DNA of 64,000 nt from Candidatus Reidiella endopervernicosa (GCF_013343005.1 NZ_CP054491.1:992001-1056000), one strand, 5' to 3'. Positions 12,368 to 39,005 are shown, counted from the first letter of the stretch. Translations and numbers: made by a program. Notes: generated from the letters alone by a model not told the origin.

Positions 12368-12844
12368 TTGCGTCACGCTATGGCACTCGGCATATTAGAG
12401 AACAATTTCTGTAACCAGATCGAATCTATGGACCCTATCAACTGTCCCTTTGAAAAGACGATTCTCAGTCGACGAGGAAACTGCGAGTGTGCCGACCGCT
12501 TCTATATCGCCGAGCGAGAGGGAGTGGGGTGCGAGCAGCTGGAGGCCTCTAATCAGTGTCGTGCGCTGATCGCGGTGCTGCGTGAGAATGCACGTTTTAC
12601 ACTGAAGATCGTTGGCAGTGCCGAGAACCTGCCGCATGGTCAGGAGATGAAGGTGCAGTGTGGTGGGCTGCTGGGGTTGCAGGCGCTGGTTGAGTCGGAA
12701 GAGTTGCAGGAGCAGGTAGCCAATATTCACTCTCTGGCCGAGGAGTTACTGGCAGAGTATGACGAGTTTGAGAGTGTGCCCTACGGTAGTGTAGTGAAGT
12801 CGATGGCGGCATATGAACATCGCCAGCGCCGGAGTCGACGCTAA
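12368..12844 (+). CDS. conserved-looking cysteine-rich hypothetical protein
   Basis: Up to 158 residues; the ATG at 12429 (MDPINCPFEK) is an alternative start that removes 20 N-terminal residues and keeps the cysteine region. Five Cys lie in INCPFEK, GNCECADRF, GVGC and NQC, suggesting metal or Fe-S binding, followed by a helical C-terminus. I do not recognise a named family. It lies divergent from mltC and convergent with the histidine kinase. Confidence 0.55.
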   Translation: MRHAMALGILENNFCNQIESMDPINCPFEKTILSRRGNCECADRFYIAEREGVGCEQLEASNQCRALIAVLRENARFTLKIVGSAENLPHGQEMKVQCGGLLGLQALVESEELQEQVANIHSLAEELLAEYDEFESVPYGSVVKSMAAYEHRQRRSRR

Positions 12845-12856
12845 GTCAGTATTGAG

Positions 12857-13552
12857 TCAGGGCAGGTAGATGGCGAAGCAGCCGCCGCCGAGACTGCCGC
12901 CATTGCTAATCTTGATCGTACCTTTGCGCTCACCGTTCTGGTGTGCATTGGCCACCAGCATTGAGAAGTAGAGTCCTAGTCCGGTACTGCCGCTGATCAT
13001 GTCGGTCTCACCCATGCGTGCCTCGGAGCGGCTCAACATCTGCTGCGGGTAGCCGGGACCGTTGTCGTCGATCCGAACCACTAGCTGCCCATCCTCTTCA
13101 GCGGCACTCAGTACTACCTGGTCGCGGCCGTAGAGCACCTCGTTATTGAGTACGTTGTTAATCACGCCCGCAAGTAGTCCGCGATCGAAGAACCAGCTCA
13201 ATCCCGCCTGGCACTCGGTGGTCAGTTCGATCTTGTTGTAGGTTAGCAGCGGTCGGTATTCGATTTGCAGCTCATCGAAGAAGTCATCGACATCAAGGTA
13301 GTCGCGGTTGGCGCTGAAGTTGTTGTTGTTCGCTTTGTAGAGGCTGAGTAGTTGAACCAGATCGTTGTTGACCCGTTTGGTCTCGTAGCGGAGTCGCTTG
13401 AGTTGTTCGGTGAGCGGGCTATCTTCGTCTGGTTCCAGGGCAGCGGTTTCGTCGAGTGAATTGAGTACCATGCCGAGTGAGTTTTTGATGTCGTGTACCG
13501 ATGACATCAATACGGCGCTGAAGTCGAGTTTTGGCTCGTCTGACTCACTCAT
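12857..13552 (-). CDS. cytosolic sensor histidine kinase
   Basis: A 231-residue kinase without a membrane or sensory domain. The H-box is SSVHDIKNSLG (His near 20), the N-box GVINNVLNNE, G1 DDNGPGYP and G2 GSTGLGLYF, all needed for ATP-dependent autophosphorylation. It starts 18 bases after the stop of the REC-TPR regulator gene on the same strand, so the two form a transcription unit and probably a cognate pair. Because input domains are absent, the signal likely comes through a protein partner or through the regulator's TPR repeats. Confidence 0.85.
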   Translation of the reverse strand: MSESDEPKLDFSAVLMSSVHDIKNSLGMVLNSLDETAALEPDEDSPLTEQLKRLRYETKRVNNDLVQLLSLYKANNNNFSANRDYLDVDDFFDELQIEYRPLLTYNKIELTTECQAGLSWFFDRGLLAGVINNVLNNEVLYGRDQVVLSAAEEDGQLVVRIDDNGPGYPQQMLSRSEARMGETDMISGSTGLGLYFSMLVANAHQNGERKGTIKISNGGSLGGGCFAIYLP

Positions 13553-29594: not shown

Positions 29595-32086
29595 ATGGGC
29601 GCAGCCCCTAACGAGGAACTGGCAAGACTAAAGGAGCAAGTCGCACTACAGGAAAAGGAGATCGCTCTGCTGCTCGATGTCTCGCGGCAGATCGTCACAC
29701 TGCTCGACATTGAGCAGGTGTTATCACTGGTCGCTGACCGGGCCATGGAGCTGATCCAGGCGGAGAGCCTGCTGATCCCCATCATCAATAAAACCACCAC
29801 CCACTATCTCTACCAGGCGACCAGCGGCAAGAATGCTGATCTGATCAAGGGGCAGCAGTTTCCAATCCATGTTGGTATGTGCGGCTGGGTCTTAACCCAT
29901 GAGCGACCGCTGATGTTCGGTCGTGACTACCCCTGGGAGATGGATGAGAAGACACGTTGGGAGGAGGGCAAGGAGTCGGCACTGTTGGTACCGCTGATCG
30001 CACGTGGACGGATTATCGGTGGTCTCTCGGGCATCGGTCGTGCGGGTGGTGGCAGCTTTACCCAGCGTGACCTTGAACTGCTGATGCTGTTTGCCAATCA
30101 GGTCAGTGTTGCGATCGAGAATGCCCAGGTGTTCCGCGAATTGGAGACGGAGAAGGAGATGGCGGAGATCACCCTTCACTCGATCGCCGATGGGGTGATC
30201 CGTACCGATGCCAGGGGGATAGTTCAGTACCTTAATCCAGTGGCCGAGTTTCTGACGGGGTGGAAACGAAACAGTGCTGTTGGCCAGCACGCCGATCAGC
30301 TGTTGCCACCGATGATTAGTGAGGAGCGCGCGGTATCGTCGGTGGTAACGCGCTGTCTCGAGAATAGAGAGACAGTGGTTGAGAGTGACTATGAGTTTCT
30401 GCCTAAAGGGCTCGAGGAGCGGCTGATTGTGCAGCTGTCGGCCTCGCCGTTGCATAGTAGTGACGCTGAGTTGAGCGGTACCGTTTTGATCTTCCGTGAT
30501 ATTACCCAGGCGCAGGAGATCGCCACCACCATGGCCTACCAGGCGAGTCATGATGCGTTGACTGGACTCTTTAATCGAGCAGTGTTCGAGGAGCGGCTCG
30601 AGCAGCTGATCAGCGAGTCGCGAGAGAACGATGCGGAACACACGCTACTCTATCTCGATCTCGACCAGTTCAAGATCGTTAACGATACCTGCGGACATCT
30701 GGCGGGCGATGAACTGTTGCGTCAGATCAGTGGCGAGATGAAAGAACAGCTACGCCACGATGACCTGTTGGCGAGGCTGGGTGGTGATGAGTTTGGTCTG
30801 TTGCTGGCCCATTGTGATGAGCAGTGTGGTGCACGCATTGCCGAGACGCTTAAGGACGCGATCAGTGATTTCCGCTTTGTCTGGAAGGAGAAGAGCTTCT
30901 TTATAGGGGTGAGTATCGGTGTGGTGCCCATTACGCGTCACGCTGGCAACTACACCTCGCTGCTGGTGGCTGCCGATCGCGCCTGTTACGCCGCCAAGGA
31001 TCGAGGCAGAAACCGTATTCATCTCTATCGTGAGGAGGATGTCGATCTGAATCGACGCCACGGTGAGATGGAGTGGGTGCACCAGATCAGCCAGGCGATG
31101 ATGGAGGATCGTTTTGTCCTCTTTGCCCAACCGATCCGCCCCCTACAGGCACAAGATCAGAAGGCGCGGCATGAGCTGCTGCTACGAATCCGTTCTGAGA
31201 GTGGCGAGCTGACACCGCCGGGCGCGTTCATTCCCGCCGCTGAGCGCTACGACAAGATGACCGAGATCGATCGCTGGGTGGTGGCGACAGCGATCTCAAA
31301 GATTGGCTCTTCACGTGCGCTGACCGCCATGGAGAGCGAAGTGAGGGCGGTTAGTCCCCGATAGTCGACGCCGTCTGTATATTCGTAGCTTGAGAGCGCG
31401 AGCGAACGACGGAGAAGATGCAGCAGCGGCTTATGTCGGCGTAGAGTCACTGAGGGAGTTGTGTAGAGCCGCGAAGAGGTGATTACGCAACGTACGCAGG
31501 ACGTCGGCGCCGCAGGCATAAACGGTCGCGTGAAGTTTTGCTGTTTGCTTGGGCTTGATGCCCAAAACAAACTTCGCAAAATAGCGACTCCCCGGTGCGT
31601 CAGTCGCAGGGGTGTGTCTCGATCAACATCTCCGGTCAGTCGCTTGGTGATGGTGCCTTTCTCGATTTCGTCGTGGATGAGATCCACGCCAAAAAGGTCG
31701 ATACCGAACTGGTCTGCTTTGAGATTACTGAGACAGCGGCAATTAGCGATTTCACCAATGCGCTCAAGTTTATCAATACGCTAAAGGGGTATGGCTGTAA
31801 GTTTGCACTGGATGACTTTGGCAGCGGTCTCTCCTCGTTTGGTTATCTAAAGAACCTGCCGATCGATTTCATTAAGATCGATGGCATGTTTGTTAAGGAT
31901 ATCCTCGATGACCCGGTCGATTTGGTGCTGGTCGAGGCGATCACCAAAGTGGCGCATGAGATCGGTGTGCCGACCATTGCAGAGTTTGTCGAGAATGAGG
32001 CGATTGAACAGAAGTTGAAGCAGATCGGTGTCGATTACGCACAGGGATACCATATTGGCTACCCAGAGCCGTGGGAGCTCGATTAG
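29595..32086 (+). pseudogene. GAF-PAS-GGDEF-EAL c-di-GMP protein, interrupted by element copy 5
   Basis: About 737 residues if the element is removed. A coiled start is followed by GAF (residues 30-185), PAS (195-300), GGDEF with intact RLGGDEF (near 395) and EAL. The EAL signature reads ELL (HELLLRI), with DDFGSGLSSFGYLKNLP intact. Both cyclase and phosphodiesterase activities are possible. The element lies in the EAL domain between KIGSSR and RQSQGCVSINISGQSL; removal rejoins in frame as SSRVRQSQ. As written the protein ends within the element (31364), keeping GAF, PAS and GGDEF but losing most of EAL, which could turn a bifunctional enzyme into a cyclase. Confidence 0.85.
31318..31595 (+). 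mobile_element. dispersed insertion element, copy 5 (in an EAL domain)
   Basis: 278 bp ending CCCCGG, same strand as host. 5' hairpin loop of the GAGAGCGAAGTGAGG type combined with the GTTTG/CAAAC 3' hairpin seen also in copy 3, so the two sequence types at each end are reassorted between copies. Internal single-base losses account for its shorter length. Confidence 0.88.
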
Positions 32087-32292
32087 TTATAGTTCTCTTG
32101 TGGTCTCAGATTGGCCCCAATAGTGCGCATGTTCTGCGCTCCTCTGGCTGCAAATCACACTAAGTGGATGTAGATCTGCCCCAACGCAACACATGGCCGC
32201 TTTTCCGTTGCTGAAATTGGTGGTTATTAGTATCACCGCGTTTGTACTGAGGATTAACAGTACCCTCTCTCTATCTATCAAGGAGTTTCGAA

Positions 32293-32724
32293 TTGTCTCT
32301 CGATGCTGTCTATATTACTGCGGGTCCCGATGTCGTATTTGAGGAGTTTGATGGCGACCTGGTAGTGCTCAACCTAACCACGGGGCGCTATTTTGGCTTC
32401 AATCAGGCGGCGGGCGTGATCTGGCGAGCAATGATGGAGAGCGCAACGCCGAATGAGATTTTGGCGAGTGTGGCAGAGCATCCCGTACTAAATGCAGAGG
32501 TGATGGGTGGTTTTGTTAACCGTCTGGTCGAGTTTGAGTTGTTGGTTGTCGACCCTGATGGCACATCTCGTACGCTCGAGTCAGAGACGGTTGAGCTGTT
32601 GGTGGCAGTAGCAGAGGTGCCTACGGTTGAGTCCTATGATGATCTGGCTGACCTGATGGTGGTTGATCCCATTCACGATACCGACCAGGCAGTAGGCTGG
32701 CCTCAGACAAAACAGGATGGTTAA
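32293..32724 (+). CDS. PqqD family protein (HPr-rel-A-like system)
   Basis: A 143-residue protein starting at TTG 32293 after AAGGAG. The N-terminal 90 residues (VVFEEFDGDLVVLNLTTG followed by RYFGFNQAAGVIW) form the PqqD winged-helix fold that binds peptide substrates. The acidic C-terminus with DDLADLMVVDPIHDTDQAVGWP resembles PqqD-like proteins encoded with HprK-related kinases. It begins a run of five genes (PqqD, HprK-like, two glycosyltransferases, nucleotidyltransferase). It may present a peptide or carrier for modification; no precursor peptide was recognised nearby. Confidence 0.75.
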   Translation: MSLDAVYITAGPDVVFEEFDGDLVVLNLTTGRYFGFNQAAGVIWRAMMESATPNEILASVAEHPVLNAEVMGGFVNRLVEFELLVVDPDGTSRTLESETVELLVAVAEVPTVESYDDLADLMVVDPIHDTDQAVGWPQTKQDG

Positions 32725-32754
32725 GGGTAGGAGAGTGGCAGGTAGCCCGGTCTG

Positions 32755-33810
32755 ATGGAGATCTCTCAGCCGCTGGTCTCAACCAGTACACTGCTCGAAT
32801 TCTTCGATTCACTCTTTGTTTACTTCGATGATGTTTTCGAGGCTGCGCCTTTCAGCGTAGAACGAAAGATTGCTGGAGAACGGTTCGACTGCCGTTTCTA
32901 CGATAATCACTACGCTGAGCTTGCAGAGACCGCGCTCTCTGACGCCAACCAAAGCGCTACTGAGGGCCGGTGTTCAATATTGGTGGCGCATGCGGGGGTT
33001 GAGAATGTGCCGCTGCCGCCTGTGTGGAGTGAACAAGAATTTCGTGAGCGTGAGATTGAAGCGAAGTTCTCATCGTCGCGATATCGCTTCCACTATTTTC
33101 ATCCCAAGTCCTTCTGGCAGATTTATGACCGCGATACACAGCGCGGTGTTCAGTTGATGTTACGACCGGATCTCTATCCCGACTGGGACCCTGGCTCCCC
33201 ACTGCGCAATTTTTTGCACTGGCACTTTGCGGCAAAAGGGATGGCGTTGATTCACTCAGGCACTCTGGCCGAAGAGGGGATAGGGGTTCTGTTGGCGGGA
33301 GCAGGTGGTTCTGGCAAGTCTGGCACTGTGATTGCCGGATTGATGCAAGGGATGCAGAGTGTGGGCGATGATTATGTGCTGGCCGAGTGTGGCGAGCAGG
33401 TGAGAGCACATGCGCTGTTGACTACCTTGAAGCAGGATCCGGATGGCTATTCGCGTTTAAGCCTCGCTGATCGTTTACCAAATGATATTCCGCTGAATTG
33501 GCAGGGCAAGCATCAGTTTAATCTCGCGGATGTGAGTGATATCGACCAACAGGCAAGTATCGAGATCAAGGCGCTCTGCCTACCGAAGGTGGTCGGTGCT
33601 GAGATGACGACCATAAGGCCAGCCAGTCGCAAGGAGGCATTTCTATCGCTAGCACCTTCAGGAGTGACACAGATGCCGGGGGATCGGGATATTGGTTTTG
33701 CTTTCTGTGGTGAGTTGATTCGGCGTTTGCCCTGCTACGTGATTGAGCTGGGTTGTGACCCTGTTGAAGTGATCGCTACATTAAAGGCGCATATCGGGAC
33801 ATTGAATTGA
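32755..33810 (+). CDS. HprK-related kinase-like protein
   Basis: A 351-residue protein. Residues 175-195 contain a Walker A motif (GAGGSGKS) after HSGTLAEEGIGVLLA, the arrangement of HPr kinase/phosphorylase-like proteins, followed by GDDYVLAE. The N-terminal 160 residues show no recognised domain. In systems of this type the kinase is linked to PqqD-like and nucleotidyltransferase proteins; the substrate is unknown. Its stop overlaps the ATG of the next gene by one base. Confidence 0.75.
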   Translation: MEISQPLVSTSTLLEFFDSLFVYFDDVFEAAPFSVERKIAGERFDCRFYDNHYAELAETALSDANQSATEGRCSILVAHAGVENVPLPPVWSEQEFREREIEAKFSSSRYRFHYFHPKSFWQIYDRDTQRGVQLMLRPDLYPDWDPGSPLRNFLHWHFAAKGMALIHSGTLAEEGIGVLLAGAGGSGKSGTVIAGLMQGMQSVGDDYVLAECGEQVRAHALLTTLKQDPDGYSRLSLADRLPNDIPLNWQGKHQFNLADVSDIDQQASIEIKALCLPKVVGAEMTTIRPASRKEAFLSLAPSGVTQMPGDRDIGFAFCGELIRRLPCYVIELGCDPVEVIATLKAHIGTLN

Positions 33811-34562
33811 TGAAAGTGACTGTTATAATTCCGGCCTACAATCGGGCAGATTTTCTTGAATATTCGATAACATCACTGCTGCGCCAACGAGATGTCGTCG
33901 ATCTTGATCTGCTGGTGGTTGATGACGGTTCGACAGATGAGACACCGCAACTGATGGGGCGTCTGATGGCGGAGGAGCCCGCGCTGCGTTACCTGCGGCA
34001 GGAGAATGGTGGTGTGGCGAAGGCGCGTAATTGCGGATTGGATAATCTGCTGCCCGAGACGGAGTTGGTAACGTTTCTCGATTCCGACGATATATCTCCA
34101 CTGGGACGTTTCGCTGCAGATCTTCCACTATTCGATGAGGATCCAACGCTCGATATCACATACGGTCGCCTGCTCTATGTTGAGCGTCTTGATCGGGATG
34201 CATTGGAACCAGCAGCCGATGCTCGAAGTGTCGATATCAGGGGGATTCAGCTGGCGTGCATAATAATCCGTCGCAGTTTTCTAGAGCGTGTGGGGCACTT
34301 TGATGAGGAGTTTGTGCAGGCCGAAGATACAGATTTCCTGCTCAGAGTTTTTGAGTCGGCACCCAACTATAAGATTACTGACACTAGCTGTGTCTACTAT
34401 CTGCGTCATCCGGGTAATATCACAAAACGAATCGATGAGGGTCGGCGCTTTTTTATGCGTGCGCTACATAAATCGGTTCTGCGACGTAAGGCGGACCCGA
34501 GCATTAAATCGGTCGGGGCGATATTCGAAAATCAGAATCCTGAGCGGTTGGAGTTTTACTGA
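33810..34562 (+). CDS. family 2 glycosyltransferase
   Basis: A 250-residue GT-A fold enzyme. VTVIIPAYNRADFLEYSITSLL and VVDDGSTDET bind the nucleotide sugar, and FLDSDD is the DxD metal motif; EDTDFLLRVF provides the ED base region. It transfers sugar from a nucleotide donor to an unidentified acceptor at the cytosolic face. Starts and stops overlap both neighbours by one base, indicating tight translational coupling in the PqqD/HprK-like cluster. Confidence 0.85.
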   Translation: MKVTVIIPAYNRADFLEYSITSLLRQRDVVDLDLLVVDDGSTDETPQLMGRLMAEEPALRYLRQENGGVAKARNCGLDNLLPETELVTFLDSDDISPLGRFAADLPLFDEDPTLDITYGRLLYVERLDRDALEPAADARSVDIRGIQLACIIIRRSFLERVGHFDEEFVQAEDTDFLLRVFESAPNYKITDTSCVYYLRHPGNITKRIDEGRRFFMRALHKSVLRRKADPSIKSVGAIFENQNPERLEFY

Positions 34563-35239
34563 TGTTTGAGTATGCCGTTGTTATCCCAGCCTACAATGCG
34601 TCACGCACCCTGGAGGAGGCGCTTGAGTCGGTTTTTTCACAGAGTGTGCCTCCCGCTGAGGTGGTCGTTGTCGATGATGGCTCTACCGATGATACGGCTG
34701 CACGGGCGCGGGCTTTCGATTCGCGTGTGACGGTGCTTGAGCAGCAGAATAGTGGGCCCGGTAATGCCACTTCGAACGGGGTAAGGGCTACGAGCTCTCC
34801 TGTCATCGCGACGCTCGATGCCGATGACCTCTGGTTGAAGGAGAAGATGGCGTTGCAGCTCGCCGAGCTAGAAGGTGAGCGGACATTATCGGGACTCTTC
34901 TGCAAGCAGCGGGTTTTTCGTCATGGTGACAATGACCGTAGTGGTGGGCGGATTCAATCTGGATTGAATCGGAGCTGTCTGGTGATCTATCGAGAAGTGT
35001 TTGATTCGGTAGGCGATATTATCGATCCGCCGGGAGGTTGTGGTGAGATGATCGATTGGCTCGGGCGTGTGCGTGAGGCGGGCTATCAGCTAAAGGAGCT
35101 CGATCAGATACTTGCACTGCGCCGTGCCATCCCCGGAAGCATGACCAGTCAGCGTGATGCAGAAAAGAACAGGGGTTATCTCCACGTGGCGCGCCAGGCG
35201 ATGCTGCGTCGCCGCCAACAAGAACAGGGTAATAGTTAG
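34562..35239 (+). CDS. family 2 glycosyltransferase
   Basis: A 225-residue enzyme starting at the ATG that overlaps the previous TGA. VVIPAYNASRTLEEALESVF, VVVDDGSTDDT and TLDADDLW give the GT-A fold and DxD motif. It is related to its upstream neighbour but shorter, lacking most of the C-terminal acceptor region. Together the pair could build a short saccharide on the target of the cluster. Confidence 0.85.
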   Translation: MFEYAVVIPAYNASRTLEEALESVFSQSVPPAEVVVVDDGSTDDTAARARAFDSRVTVLEQQNSGPGNATSNGVRATSSPVIATLDADDLWLKEKMALQLAELEGERTLSGLFCKQRVFRHGDNDRSGGRIQSGLNRSCLVIYREVFDSVGDIIDPPGGCGEMIDWLGRVREAGYQLKELDQILALRRAIPGSMTSQRDAEKNRGYLHVARQAMLRRRQQEQGNS

Positions 35240-35247
35240 TCGAACCG

Positions 35248-36714
35248 ATGTCGTTCTGTTTCCGATGTTTTCCAAAAATGAGTTGGGCGTGGCCTCAGGG
35301 TGATCACGATCAGCTTCTGTTTTGCGCCGTCTCTCCTGATCGTGATGTGGCGTTGGAACAGTTTTCGCGCTGGTTATCGAGAAACAATATCGATGATCTG
35401 ACATTTCGTGAACACCGCTTACTGGCAGCCATTGCCGAACGATTTGGCAAATCATTGGCGCACCATAGCGAATATCCACGCTTAGCAGGTCTGCAGCGCA
35501 TGCTCTGGACCAAGTCACGCATGGCAATCAACGAGTCGTTGCCGATGTTGCGCAGATTGGTCGAAGTTGGCATTGATGTGATGCTGATCAAGGGCGCGGC
35601 CAGGATTGCACTGAATGAGTCCGACCAGAAGGCGCGCGTGGCGCACGACATCGACATCCTGATCCGATATGAAGATTTTCAGCGAGCAATAGAGTTGCTG
35701 GTTGAAAATGGCTGGAGGTATGACTCGGGGGAGACGCTGCTCTCTCTGAAGAGTCGCCTTTCTGCGATACGAGGTATTAACCTCTTCAAAGGAAGGCTAG
35801 GTGATATCGATCTTCATCAGGCGGCCTTCAAACTCAACGAACCACTTCGTGATGGCACGCAGGGGTTGTGGGGGCGTGCAGAGAAGGCGAACTTTTTCGG
35901 CCTTGAGCTGTTTGTTCCCTCGGTTGAGGATCGCATGGTGCTCGCCATTTCACATGGTGGGGTGGATGGGCACTCCCACAGCGATTGGTTGGTCGATTGC
36001 GCATTGGCCGCCTCGGATGAGGCGTTTAACTGGCAGCGCTTTGTCGAGATTGTTGTTGAACAGCAGATTGTCGTGCCGAGTCGAATTGCCCTGGGTTATC
36101 TGCAGCAGCGACTTGGTGTTGTGATTCCGGATTTCGTCATTGACGCGTTGGAAAAGGCTGATCGCCAGAGTCTATCTGGTCGGTGGACTGAACTTGTTCT
36201 GGCTAAGCCGATGACGGATGTATCGTTGCCTGGTTGGGTGCTTCTCCCCTTAATTAAAATTCTGCGTATACGTTATGAGCGGCGTGGCAGACGTTCCGAG
36301 TCGCAGGTTGTTAAGGTGTTGCGCGGTCGTGTCCAACGGAAAGGTGGTGTCAATCCTGAAGGTGAACCAGCACTTCGTAGTTGCATTGAGACGGAGCATG
36401 TAGAGGCAGCCGGTGCTTATCTTTGCAAAATCGAAATGACGGTATCGCTGCCAGCGGTCAACCGGCGGCTTGAGTTCGAGTTAAATAGTGAGACACGCCA
36501 TATAGCAAGACTGCGAGCCCGCACGGTTAGTCGTGCACCCGGTATCGCCATAATCTCTTTTGAAGGTGAGTTGGGCCTGTTGTCAGAGGATGTAGTGCTG
36601 TGGGTAGAGTCGAGACCGGTCAGCCAGAGTCGCACTAAAACGAAGGGTTTGCAGCAGGAAAAATATGAAGCGCTTCCGTTTGTACTCAATAGCGCGCAGC
36701 TGACCAGGATTTAA
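35248..36714 (+). CDS. uncharacterised nucleotidyltransferase family protein
   Basis: About 488 residues (MSWAWPQGD near 35278 is an alternative start with similar support). IDVMLIKGAARIAL followed by RVAHDIDILIRYEDFQRAIELL is the nucleotidyltransferase signature (the DID metal-binding pair) of the NTP_transf_5 type, and DIDLHQ supplies the third acidic residue. Such proteins are frequently found with HprK-like and PqqD-like genes in polysaccharide or peptide-modification loci. It is the last gene of the cluster, nine bases after the second glycosyltransferase. Confidence 0.75.
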   Translation: MSFCFRCFPKMSWAWPQGDHDQLLFCAVSPDRDVALEQFSRWLSRNNIDDLTFREHRLLAAIAERFGKSLAHHSEYPRLAGLQRMLWTKSRMAINESLPMLRRLVEVGIDVMLIKGAARIALNESDQKARVAHDIDILIRYEDFQRAIELLVENGWRYDSGETLLSLKSRLSAIRGINLFKGRLGDIDLHQAAFKLNEPLRDGTQGLWGRAEKANFFGLELFVPSVEDRMVLAISHGGVDGHSHSDWLVDCALAASDEAFNWQRFVEIVVEQQIVVPSRIALGYLQQRLGVVIPDFVIDALEKADRQSLSGRWTELVLAKPMTDVSLPGWVLLPLIKILRIRYERRGRRSESQVVKVLRGRVQRKGGVNPEGEPALRSCIETEHVEAAGAYLCKIEMTVSLPAVNRRLEFELNSETRHIARLRARTVSRAPGIAIISFEGELGLLSEDVVLWVESRPVSQSRTKTKGLQQEKYEALPFVLNSAQLTRI

Positions 36715-36776: not shown

Positions 36777-36850
36777 TGGAGCGGGTGATGGGAATCGAAC
36801 CCACGTGATCAGCTTGGGAAGCTGAAGTTCTACCATTGAACTACACCCGC
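36777..36850 (-). tRNA. tRNA-Gly (CCC)
   Basis: A 74-base cloverleaf on the - strand: acceptor GCGGGTG pairs with CACCCGC, anticodon stem TCAGC/GCTGA with loop TTCCCAA (anticodon CCC), T-loop GTTCGATTC, and an encoded CCA end. Confidence 0.95.
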
Positions 36851-37005: not shown

Positions 37006-38064
37006 ATGCGCATTGTGCACATCGACAATCTTATGATCAGGCGTTTCGGTCGGACCAAGGTCTCGACTGGGCGGCGGCTCTTCAATGGCATGGTGCGTAA
37101 CAACTATAAGGTCTGTGAGTACTCTGATCGTGATATCTCCAGTTTTACTGCGCCGCTGAGGATCAAACCACTGGGGCGGGCGCAGGCGAATCGCCATCTG
37201 ATCGAGACATGTGAGAACTTCCGTCCTGACTTCATTCTGATGGGCCACTGTGACCTGATTGAAAACGAGACGCTGGCCGAGATTCGCAAACTGCTGCCTG
37301 CGGTGAAGATCGCCTATCGCAATCTCGACCCGCTCTGGGACGAGCATGAGTCGGTCAAAATGCGAGAGAGCAATATCTCAAAAATCCAGCACCGTATGCC
37401 GGTAGTCGATGCGATCTTTATTACAACCGGTGGCGAGCTGTTGAAACAGTTTCAGACCGATCAGAATGTCGTTGCCTTTCTGCCCAACGCCACCGATGCC
37501 GGTTGGGATGATCAGAACAATGCCGAGAAGCGTGAGTTCAAGCGCGACCTGATGTTCTGCGGTGTCGGCAATAAGAGTGATGACCGTTATACCTTTGCCG
37601 GTGAGTTGCATCAGGCTCTAGGTGATCGAGTCAGCTTTGAGAGCTTCGGCATGCACGGCTACCCGGCGGTATGGGGGCTCGACTACGAGGATGTAATCGC
37701 GACCAGCAAAATGGGGCTTAATCTCAATCGTTACGAAGGCTATCCGCTCTACTCCTCTGATCGTATTGCGCAGCTCATGGGCAATGGTTTGTTGACCTGC
37801 CTCTGGGATAGTCCAGAGAGTCGCATGCGAGAGTTCTTCAGTGATGAGCAGGTGCTCTTCTTCCGTGATCTCGATCAGTTGGTAGAAAAGCTAAAGGTGT
37901 TCAAGGCGGATGATGCCCAGCGCCGCGCCGTGGCCGCTGCTGGGCGCGCCCACTACCATGAACATTTCAGTGGTGAGCGGGTGATTAAATATATGGTCGA
38001 GACCACCTTCGGCCTCCCCTATAGCTACGATTATCTGTGGCAGAACGAGGTCTATCGCCGATGA
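37006..38064 (+). CDS. GT-B type glycosyltransferase
   Basis: A 352-residue protein. The C-terminal half has the form of family 1 / CgeB-like glycosyltransferases: SKMGLNLNRYEGYPLYSSDRIAQLMGNGLLTCLWDSP then a helical tail (HYHEHFSGERVIKYM). The N-terminal half (VHIDNLMIRRFGRTKVSTGRRL) fits the acceptor domain. It likely adds a sugar to a surface glycan. Its stop overlaps the following sulfotransferase start (ATGA), so glycosylation and sulfation are probably linked steps. Confidence 0.75.
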   Translation: MRIVHIDNLMIRRFGRTKVSTGRRLFNGMVRNNYKVCEYSDRDISSFTAPLRIKPLGRAQANRHLIETCENFRPDFILMGHCDLIENETLAEIRKLLPAVKIAYRNLDPLWDEHESVKMRESNISKIQHRMPVVDAIFITTGGELLKQFQTDQNVVAFLPNATDAGWDDQNNAEKREFKRDLMFCGVGNKSDDRYTFAGELHQALGDRVSFESFGMHGYPAVWGLDYEDVIATSKMGLNLNRYEGYPLYSSDRIAQLMGNGLLTCLWDSPESRMREFFSDEQVLFFRDLDQLVEKLKVFKADDAQRRAVAAAGRAHYHEHFSGERVIKYMVETTFGLPYSYDYLWQNEVYRR

Positions 38065-39005
38065 GCGAGCAGCAGGTCGTAGTCCACATCGGGCTCTCCA
38101 AATGTGCCAGCACCTATCTCCAGAAGACGATCTTTCCGGGTATGGGTAACTACTCCAATGTCGCCTTCGCGCCGCGACGAGAGAAGTACCATCTCTTCTA
38201 CGATGGCATGACCCCCGACTCCTATCGGGAGATTGTCGCCCGTCACATGGTCAACCCAAATCCGAAGAGTCGCTGGCTGGTGCTCTCCTGTGAGGACTAC
38301 ACCGAGCTGATGTTCCAGGGTTTTGAGGATGTCTTCTACGATTGGGAGCGTGTTGGGCGTGAACACTACCGCTACTCCAATAAGATGATCGCTGAGAATA
38401 TCGCGCGTACCTATCCAGGGGCGAAGATCGTAGTGGTGATCCGAGAGCAGATCAGCTGGGCGATCAGCCGTTACAAGATGAACTACCGTGGTGGTAAGAC
38501 TTCGGCCGGTATCGATGAGCTGATGGCCGAGCCGCTGGAGGGTTACGATGTGATGGTGGAACGCTACCAGCGGCTGTTCGGGCGCGAGAATGTGCTGGTG
38601 ATGCCGCTTGAGATGATGCGTGAAGACCGGGACGGGTTTGTTAACCAGATCACCCGCTTTATTGGTGAAGAGCAGCGTGTCGATGCCCCCGATCTGGCGG
38701 TCAATGCGGCACCGGAGTTGCTGCGTACGGTGGAGTATGAGCGGCTGAAAAATCGCTGGCGGCTCAATATCCACCGCACCGGCTGGCTAACGATGCCGGG
38801 ACGTTTTCTGATCGGTGCCGTAGCTCGGCTGTTGGTCGGACTGACGAAGCCTACCTTCTATCTGAAATATGGCAGTGAGATCTACTCTGCTGCGCCTTCG
38901 GAGCAGGTCGTGGCTCGACTGCATCCGCTATTGGCGGAGAGTAACCGTAAGCTTGAGTCGCTGACCGGGCTGGAGTTGGCCAAGTATGGTTACATCGTCG
39001 ATTAA
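38061..39005 (+). CDS. sulfotransferase family protein
   Basis: A 314-residue protein with the two PAPS-binding motifs of sulfotransferases: a 5'-phosphosulfate loop HIGLSKCASTYLQ and a 3'-phosphate motif VVVIREQISWAISRYKM. No signal peptide is present. It would transfer a sulfo group from PAPS to a carbohydrate, probably the product of the coupled glycosyltransferase. It precedes the thiamine genes by 67 bases. Confidence 0.85.
   Translation: MSEQQVVVHIGLSKCASTYLQKTIFPGMGNYSNVAFAPRREKYHLFYDGMTPDSYREIVARHMVNPNPKSRWLVLSCEDYTELMFQGFEDVFYDWERVGREHYRYSNKMIAENIARTYPGAKIVVVIREQISWAISRYKMNYRGGKTSAGIDELMAEPLEGYDVMVERYQRLFGRENVLVMPLEMMREDRDGFVNQITRFIGEEQRVDAPDLAVNAAPELLRTVEYERLKNRWRLNIHRTGWLTMPGRFLIGAVARLLVGLTKPTFYLKYGSEIYSAAPSEQVVARLHPLLAESNRKLESLTGLELAKYGYIVD

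Follow-up and report, generated by a model that had tools for sequence, protein, structure and literature searches.

A conserved five-gene module in Candidatus Reidiella endopervernicosa with a candidate leader and core fused to a PqqD-like recognition protein

Introduction

The DNA analysed here (the window) is a stretch of 64,000 nucleotides from Candidatus Reidiella endopervernicosa (GCF_013343005.1 NZ_CP054491.1:992001-1056000), in which positions 32293-36714 encode a PqqD-like protein, an HprK-like kinase, two family 2 glycosyltransferases (GT2a and GT2b) and a nucleotidyltransferase (NTase) of the NTP_transf_5 family. The operon is conserved in other bacteria, the PqqD-like protein has the fold of a recognition element (RRE) for ribosomally synthesized and post-translationally modified peptides (RiPPs), its C-terminal tail holds a leader-like motif in register with a conserved core, and the active-site residues of the module are intact. 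We tentatively favour, at just under even confidence, the reading that this protein is a self-contained RRE-leader-core polypeptide modified by the kinase, the NTase and the glycosyltransferases. The initial annotation reported that the peptide precursor was not found; no separate conserved small open reading frame (ORF) indeed turned up, and the ‘missing’ precursor probably resides in the PqqD protein, to which it appears fused as a leader-like and core tail.

Sets of PqqD, HprK and NTP_transf_5 proteins are widespread, with substrates known only in lasso peptide clusters. If the favoured reading is true, a precursor placed within the RRE C-terminus would explain why precursor searches failed here and would bring precursors that are joined to their own recognition domain into RiPP biology. 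The 15-residue motif offers a mutable handle that can be followed by mass spectrometry.

Layout of the module

The five genes are adjacent, overlap or nearly touch, and all lie on the + strand; this arrangement and the families given in the initial annotation were confirmed. The features are as follows.

32293-32724, + strand: PqqD-like RRE protein with C-terminal tail, 143 aa, TTG start; ribosome-binding site AAGGAG at 32280-32285, 7 nt 5′ of the start
32305-32550, + strand: RRE peptide-binding domain, residues 5-86, from the AlphaFold2 model (predicted local distance difference test, pLDDT, >90) and fold alignment (range 5-87)
32620-32658, + strand: leader-like tail segment, residues 110-122 (PTVESYDDLADLM), from a predicted beta-strand (112-115), entropy and motif
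32659-32703, + strand: candidate core, residues 123-137 (VVDPIHDTDQAVGWP), disordered in the model and the most conserved stretch of the PqqD protein
32755-33810, + strand: HprK-like P-loop kinase with an N-terminal domain of ~150 aa; H167, K188, S189, D205 and D206 conserved
33810-34562, + strand: GT2a, soluble GT2 glycosyltransferase (PF00535; TGATG coupling)
34562-35239, + strand: GT2b, short soluble GT2 (PF00535; D38-D-G-S, D86-x-D-D and C-terminal RR)
35248-36714, + strand: NTP_transf_5 protein (PF14907) with N-terminal helices, an NTase domain and a C-terminal beta-sandwich
35518-36156, + strand: nucleotidyltransferase-fold domain of NTP_transf_5, residues ~91-303; K115-G116, D134-x-D136 and D186-x-D188 conserved
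36313-36708, + strand: C-terminal beta-sandwich of NTP_transf_5, residues 356-487, weakly resembling CBM35
36777-36850, − strand: tRNA-Gly(CCC), outside the module and marking its 3′ boundary

The claimed translational coupling of the two GT2 genes within the cluster holds, with TGATG overlaps around both: at 33810 the HprK stop overlaps the GT2a ATG, and at 34562 the GT2a stop overlaps that of GT2b. A GT2a start at TTG 33807 was an ORF-caller artefact, the true start being ATG 33810. The NTP_transf_5 gene starts 8 nt past the GT2b stop.

The PqqD-like protein and its tail

The protein matches PqqD family PF05402 at 26.7 bits (cut-off 23.4). Judged by profile and modelled fold it is a lasso-type RRE: the profile of the lasso B1 protein TbiB1 matches with an E-value of 1e-13, and fold alignment gives Z 10.6 to TfuB1 (6jx3_B) and TbiB1 (5v1u_A), both structures with a bound leader. 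AlphaFold2 predicts the RRE confidently (pLDDT >90), followed by a helix at 97-105, a confident strand at 112-115 and disorder after about residue 120.

In every PqqD of the 20 close loci described below, the C-terminal extension consists of a variable linker, then DDLADLxxxDPIHDVDxxxGWP and a few further residues; the tail pattern is P-x-[LVI]-x-x-[YF]-x-D-[LM]-x-x-L-x-x-x-DPIHDVDxxxGWP. Column entropy averages 1.50 bits over the RRE and 2.29 over the linker; it is 1.05 across residues 110-122 and 0.73 across residues 123-137, where 7 of 15 columns are invariant. No other part of the protein is conserved as strongly as this DPIHD...GWP core. The tail is shared by gamma- and alphaproteobacteria and by the cyanobacterium Crinalium, in which it is found on a plasmid beside NTP_transf_5, HprK, FkbM and GT2 genes.

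A search with the tail only, of 398 Pseudomonadota genomes and 385 genomes of one class, returned PqqD-type proteins and a single other match (9e-4), which lies within an unrelated 954-aa ORF and was taken as chance. That match apart, the motif was fused to PqqD wherever it occurred in those genomes, in the plasmid collection and in all the loci fetched. When every ORF of at least 20 aa in these loci was scanned with a profile, no stand-alone tail came up, and the tail was found neither in viral contigs nor in PDB sequences. Nothing relevant to the tail string or to a PqqD/HprK/NTase/GT module was found in the open-access literature, which is weak evidence of novelty.

The leader motif is clearest in 14 divergent loci with a tail-type PqqD, where [YF]xxPx[LVIMF] is present in 10 of 14 tails (mean 0.75 and maximum 5 over 2000 shuffles) and invariably starts 18 residues ahead of the conserved core Asp. 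Lasso precursors of Bradymonadales have YxxPxL at −17 to −12 and isoleucine, not threonine, at −2 (PMC10368454). The spacing in the divergent tails is close to that published position; by lasso numbering the conserved Asp falls at position 2 of the core, and a hydrophobic residue (I/L/F/M) at −2.

As a separate observation, three loci of one sphingomonad-like genome family (L063, L064 and L065; f173) have two NTP_transf_5 genes and a PqqD that has LDPPLPAAPR or similar at its end in place of DPIHDVD...GWP, possibly a second core type.

Conservation of the module

The 20 close loci, mostly from Alphaproteobacteria (Rhodobacterales, Rhizobiales), were obtained by scanning genome contigs with the HprK-like protein as query. 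Sampling was biased to relatives found via short exact peptide patterns, and phyla beyond Pseudomonadota were covered via plasmids only. The five-gene order recurs in these independently fetched loci with proteins 34-55% identical (40-51% for the HprK-like proteins). The order HprK-GT2a-GT2b-NTP_transf_5 is present in 20/20, and PqqD stands 5′ of HprK in 19, that is, wherever the contig extends far enough; four Mesorhizobium loci have an extra GT2a-like gene.

That the five genes are chance neighbours, with the glycosyltransferases inserted by accident, is refuted; nothing spoke in its favour, and it retains practically no probability. Homologous clusters do not consistently lack these enzymes, both being present in all 20 close loci and at least one GT2 in all 14 divergent ones, and the divergence of the five proteins is correlated across loci (Spearman 0.30-0.75 for pairwise identities). 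The glycosyltransferases belong to the cluster, as initially annotated. Among the 14 divergent loci, some on short contigs, HprK was found in 11 and NTP_transf_5 in 9; since GT2 is found in every one, it is at least as integral to the module as the kinase. The GT2 enzymes, not the kinase, are thus the most constant partner of the tail-type RRE.

In a set of 56 genomes of relatives no HprK-like match was found besides the source genome itself. The module is therefore rare in its class, which suggests lateral acquisition; the block was probably acquired horizontally.

A second cassette in the same genome (L003) has PqqD, HprK, GT2b and NTP_transf_5. Its GT2a has decayed, leaving a 42-aa GT2a-matching remnant directly past HprK (12792-12920). 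Adjoining this cassette, L003 573-8451 encodes Sel1/TPR-repeat, outer-membrane-like, right-handed beta-helix, HlyD-like and PilZ-like proteins together with a ManC-like gene, a group resembling an alginate synthesis cluster.

The enzymes

The HprK-like protein scores well below the cut-offs of the families nearest to it: 32.8 bits against 200 for TIGR04352 and 24 against 240 for TIGR00679, both over the P-loop region only, and 18 against 33.3 for PF07475. Its residues H167, K188, S189, D205 and D206 are nevertheless invariant in 16 sequences, and the H...GKS...DD signature that they form is the one that lasso peptide kinases require (PMC9266682, PMC10368454). GT2a and GT2b match PF00535 above its cut-off (1e-23 and 7e-27; 84.6 and 94.9 bits) and have DDGS and DxD motifs. 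D38-D-G-S, D86-x-D-D and the C-terminal RR of GT2b are common to the gamma-, alpha- and cyanobacterial copies, and GT2b is one coherent subfamily across these groups. NTP_transf_5 matches PF14907 (9e-21; 75 bits, gathering score 31.2) and has an NTase fold with conserved KG, DxD and DxD motifs; the closest structural matches of this domain are MenT1 (Z 14.0), LnuA (Z 11.7), ANT(2'') (Z 11.3) and FKRP (Z 10.1). Its beta-sandwich aligns with CBM35 sugar-binding modules at Z about 6, which is in the chance range and not decisive. The five proteins have no membrane segment (maximum 19-residue hydropathy 1.51).

Comparison with known systems

HPr-rel-A system. This system (TIGR04352 HprK_rel_A, PqqD and NTP_transf_5) has the same three protein types adjacent to one another. 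The loci examined have a short PqqD without tail and no GT2 match, and membership was rejected on the TIGR04352 score given above. The five genes are a real module, as initially annotated; it is not the canonical set of PqqD, HprK and NTP_transf_5, because the HprK-like protein is not HprK_rel_A. In two HPr-rel-A loci (L079 3831-4364 and L081 3386-3865) a separate protein with a twin-arginine (Tat)-like start, RRRKLIKG or RRKLLKG, is encoded just upstream of the tail-less PqqD, and is a possible target of that system.

SynChlorMet. This cassette has the same HprK-like/PqqD-like pair (ScmC and ScmD). Membership was rejected on the scores (ScmC 13.4 bits against 125, ScmD 16.1 against 100); our cassette also differs in having no radical S-adenosylmethionine (SAM) gene.

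Mycofactocin. The RRE MftB and the GT2 MftF act on a peptide-derived product. Mycofactocin differs from our module in having a stand-alone precursor and a radical SAM enzyme, and the likeness of GT2a to MftF is at superfamily level only (68 against 280 bits).

Lasso peptides. The clusters for pseudomycoidin (psmK/psmN), paeninodin (padeK) and the Bradymonas peptide (bsfK/bsfN/bsfB1) resemble the module in their lasso-B1-type RRE, in the HprK-like peptide kinase (H...GKS...DD) with a predicted-nucleotidyltransferase partner, and, for 10 of the 14 divergent tails and in part for the tail in the window, in a YxxPxL-like leader motif at nearly equal spacing. The module differs in its putative RRE-fused precursor, in the absence of the B2 peptidase, cyclase and transporter, in its two GT2s and in a core without conserved Ser.

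Precursor and maturation partners. Among 815 small ORFs flanking the 20 loci, conserved ones occurred only between close Mesorhizobium genomes, and no small ORF with YxxPxL was found in the window (4 expected by chance). The radical SAM and peptidase partners that the initial annotation proposed to look for near homologous clusters were scarce or absent: radical SAM genes lie beside 2 of the 20 loci only (L010 and L011), the lasso peptidase Transglut_core3 (PF13471) has no match in the whole genome, and none was noted beside related cassettes. The asparagine-synthetase-like cyclase C was not found among the five genes and the two downstream genes, the rest of the genome not having been searched for it. 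Membership in a lasso peptide cluster was rejected on the missing peptidase and on the absence of a cyclase from the cluster.

The module might also be a lasso cluster served in trans by a peptidase and a cyclase from elsewhere in the genome. Its lasso-type RRE, its leader-like motif, a kinase and NTase as in the bsf and psm clusters and acidic residues at core positions 8/9 would suit such a cluster; the absence of the PF13471 peptidase from the genome largely refutes it, and neither the surroundings of related cassettes, nor core residue 1, which is not Gly, nor the apparent fusion of the precursor to the RRE agrees with it. We regard it as very improbable.

Proposed mechanism and alternatives

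Under the favoured reading the module would be akin to the RRE/kinase/NTase part of lasso clusters, without peptidase, cyclase and exporter, and the PqqD-like protein would combine a lasso-type RRE and its substrate in a single chain. In models of lasso B1 proteins the bound leader forms a fourth strand next to beta-3 (PMC5067487). The leader-like segment may likewise dock on the RRE as an extra strand, holding out the conserved core [A/V/L]DPIHDVDxxxGWP. The HprK-like kinase would phosphorylate a residue there, NTP_transf_5, like PsmN in the case of pseudomycoidin, would act on the phosphate, and GT2a and GT2b may add sugars. In whatever order these steps run, the product would presumably be a glycosylated and/or phosphorylated tail tethered to its carrier. 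Phosphorylation and glycosylation by the module are proposed by analogy with the lasso precedents PsmK/PsmN and BsfK (PMC9266682, PMC10368454). There, the RRE BsfB1 speeds up phosphorylation by BsfK, and PsmN attaches hexoses to phospho-Ser, although nucleotidylation with subsequent glycosylation by the host is also possible (PMC9266682, PMC10368454).

Several observations weigh against this reading. The tail has no conserved Ser, Thr or Tyr, and the known lasso kinase chemistry therefore cannot apply unchanged. The tail in the window keeps the Pro (P110) and the next hydrophobic residue of the leader motif and has lost the first aromatic. In three sphingomonad-like loci (L050-L052) the PqqD C-terminus reads LDPPLPAAPR or similar and lacks the His and GWP, and in the divergent loci, some on short contigs, NTP_transf_5 was not found in 5/14 nor HprK in 3/14. 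That strand 112-115 occupies the leader groove beside beta-3 is our inference from the model.

Because the tail lacks a conserved hydroxyl residue, either the modification falls on a residue other than Ser, Thr or Tyr, or the tail serves for docking only. In the former case the module might represent an uncleaved RiPP-like class with RRE, leader and core in one polypeptide, the RRE protein serving as carrier or primer for a phosphoglycan that the cytosolic kinase, NTase and glycosyltransferases would build with Asp, His or Trp of the invariant DPIHDVDxxxGWP as the non-hydroxyl acceptor; we consider this specific proposal rather unlikely.

In the latter case the tail would be a docking or scaffold motif: through DPIHDVDxxxGWP the RRE protein would recruit the kinase, NTase and glycosyltransferases, and the real acceptor would be a different protein, a glycan or a small molecule. 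We give this alternative an appreciable, if minor, share of the probability. It accounts for the lack of a conserved hydroxyl residue and for a core that is strongly conserved and not hypervariable, as interaction motifs typically are. Polysaccharide genes also neighbour some copies, namely GDP-mannose dehydratase-like epimerases in L008/L010 and ABC export genes in L038. A lasso leader motif correctly spaced ahead of the core suits a substrate better, however, and no further conserved gene or small ORF turned up that might be the acceptor.

The five genes might instead serve sugar activation, the HprK-like protein being a sugar kinase, NTP_transf_5 making an NDP-sugar that the GT2s transfer to a cell-surface polysaccharide, and PqqD an accessory. 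The order kinase, nucleotidyltransferase, glycosyltransferase makes chemical sense, small-molecule NTases and FKRP are among the structural matches of the NTase domain, and the second cassette adjoins the ManC-like gene and what we read as alginate-synthesis-like genes. Yet the PF14907/HprK pairs of demonstrated activity act on peptides (PsmK/PsmN, BsfK), all five products are soluble, the RRE and tail are left unexplained, and GT2 accompanies the tail-type PqqD more constantly than do the kinase and NTase. We consider sugar activation improbable.

Neighbouring features

Downstream, between the tRNA gene and thiS/thiG (window 37006-39005), a gene for a CgeB-like glycosyltransferase (PF13524) overlaps a sulfotransferase gene (PF13469). 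These two were rejected as parts of the module: the tRNA gene intervenes, and they were not seen beside related cassettes.

Upstream of the module lies an EAL gene split by a repeat of ~280 bp (31310-31600), which divides a GAF/GGDEF/EAL gene into 29595-31364 and a resumed part at 31595-32086. Further copies occur in the window around 6270, 15237, 19980, 27667, 54113 and 54602. Copies are 94-98% identical, with at least 42 genomic copies scored and 368 first-look candidates, and the repeat looks like a very abundant element of the miniature inverted-repeat transposable element (MITE) kind. The PilZ-like gene near the second cassette is seemingly truncated by it as well.

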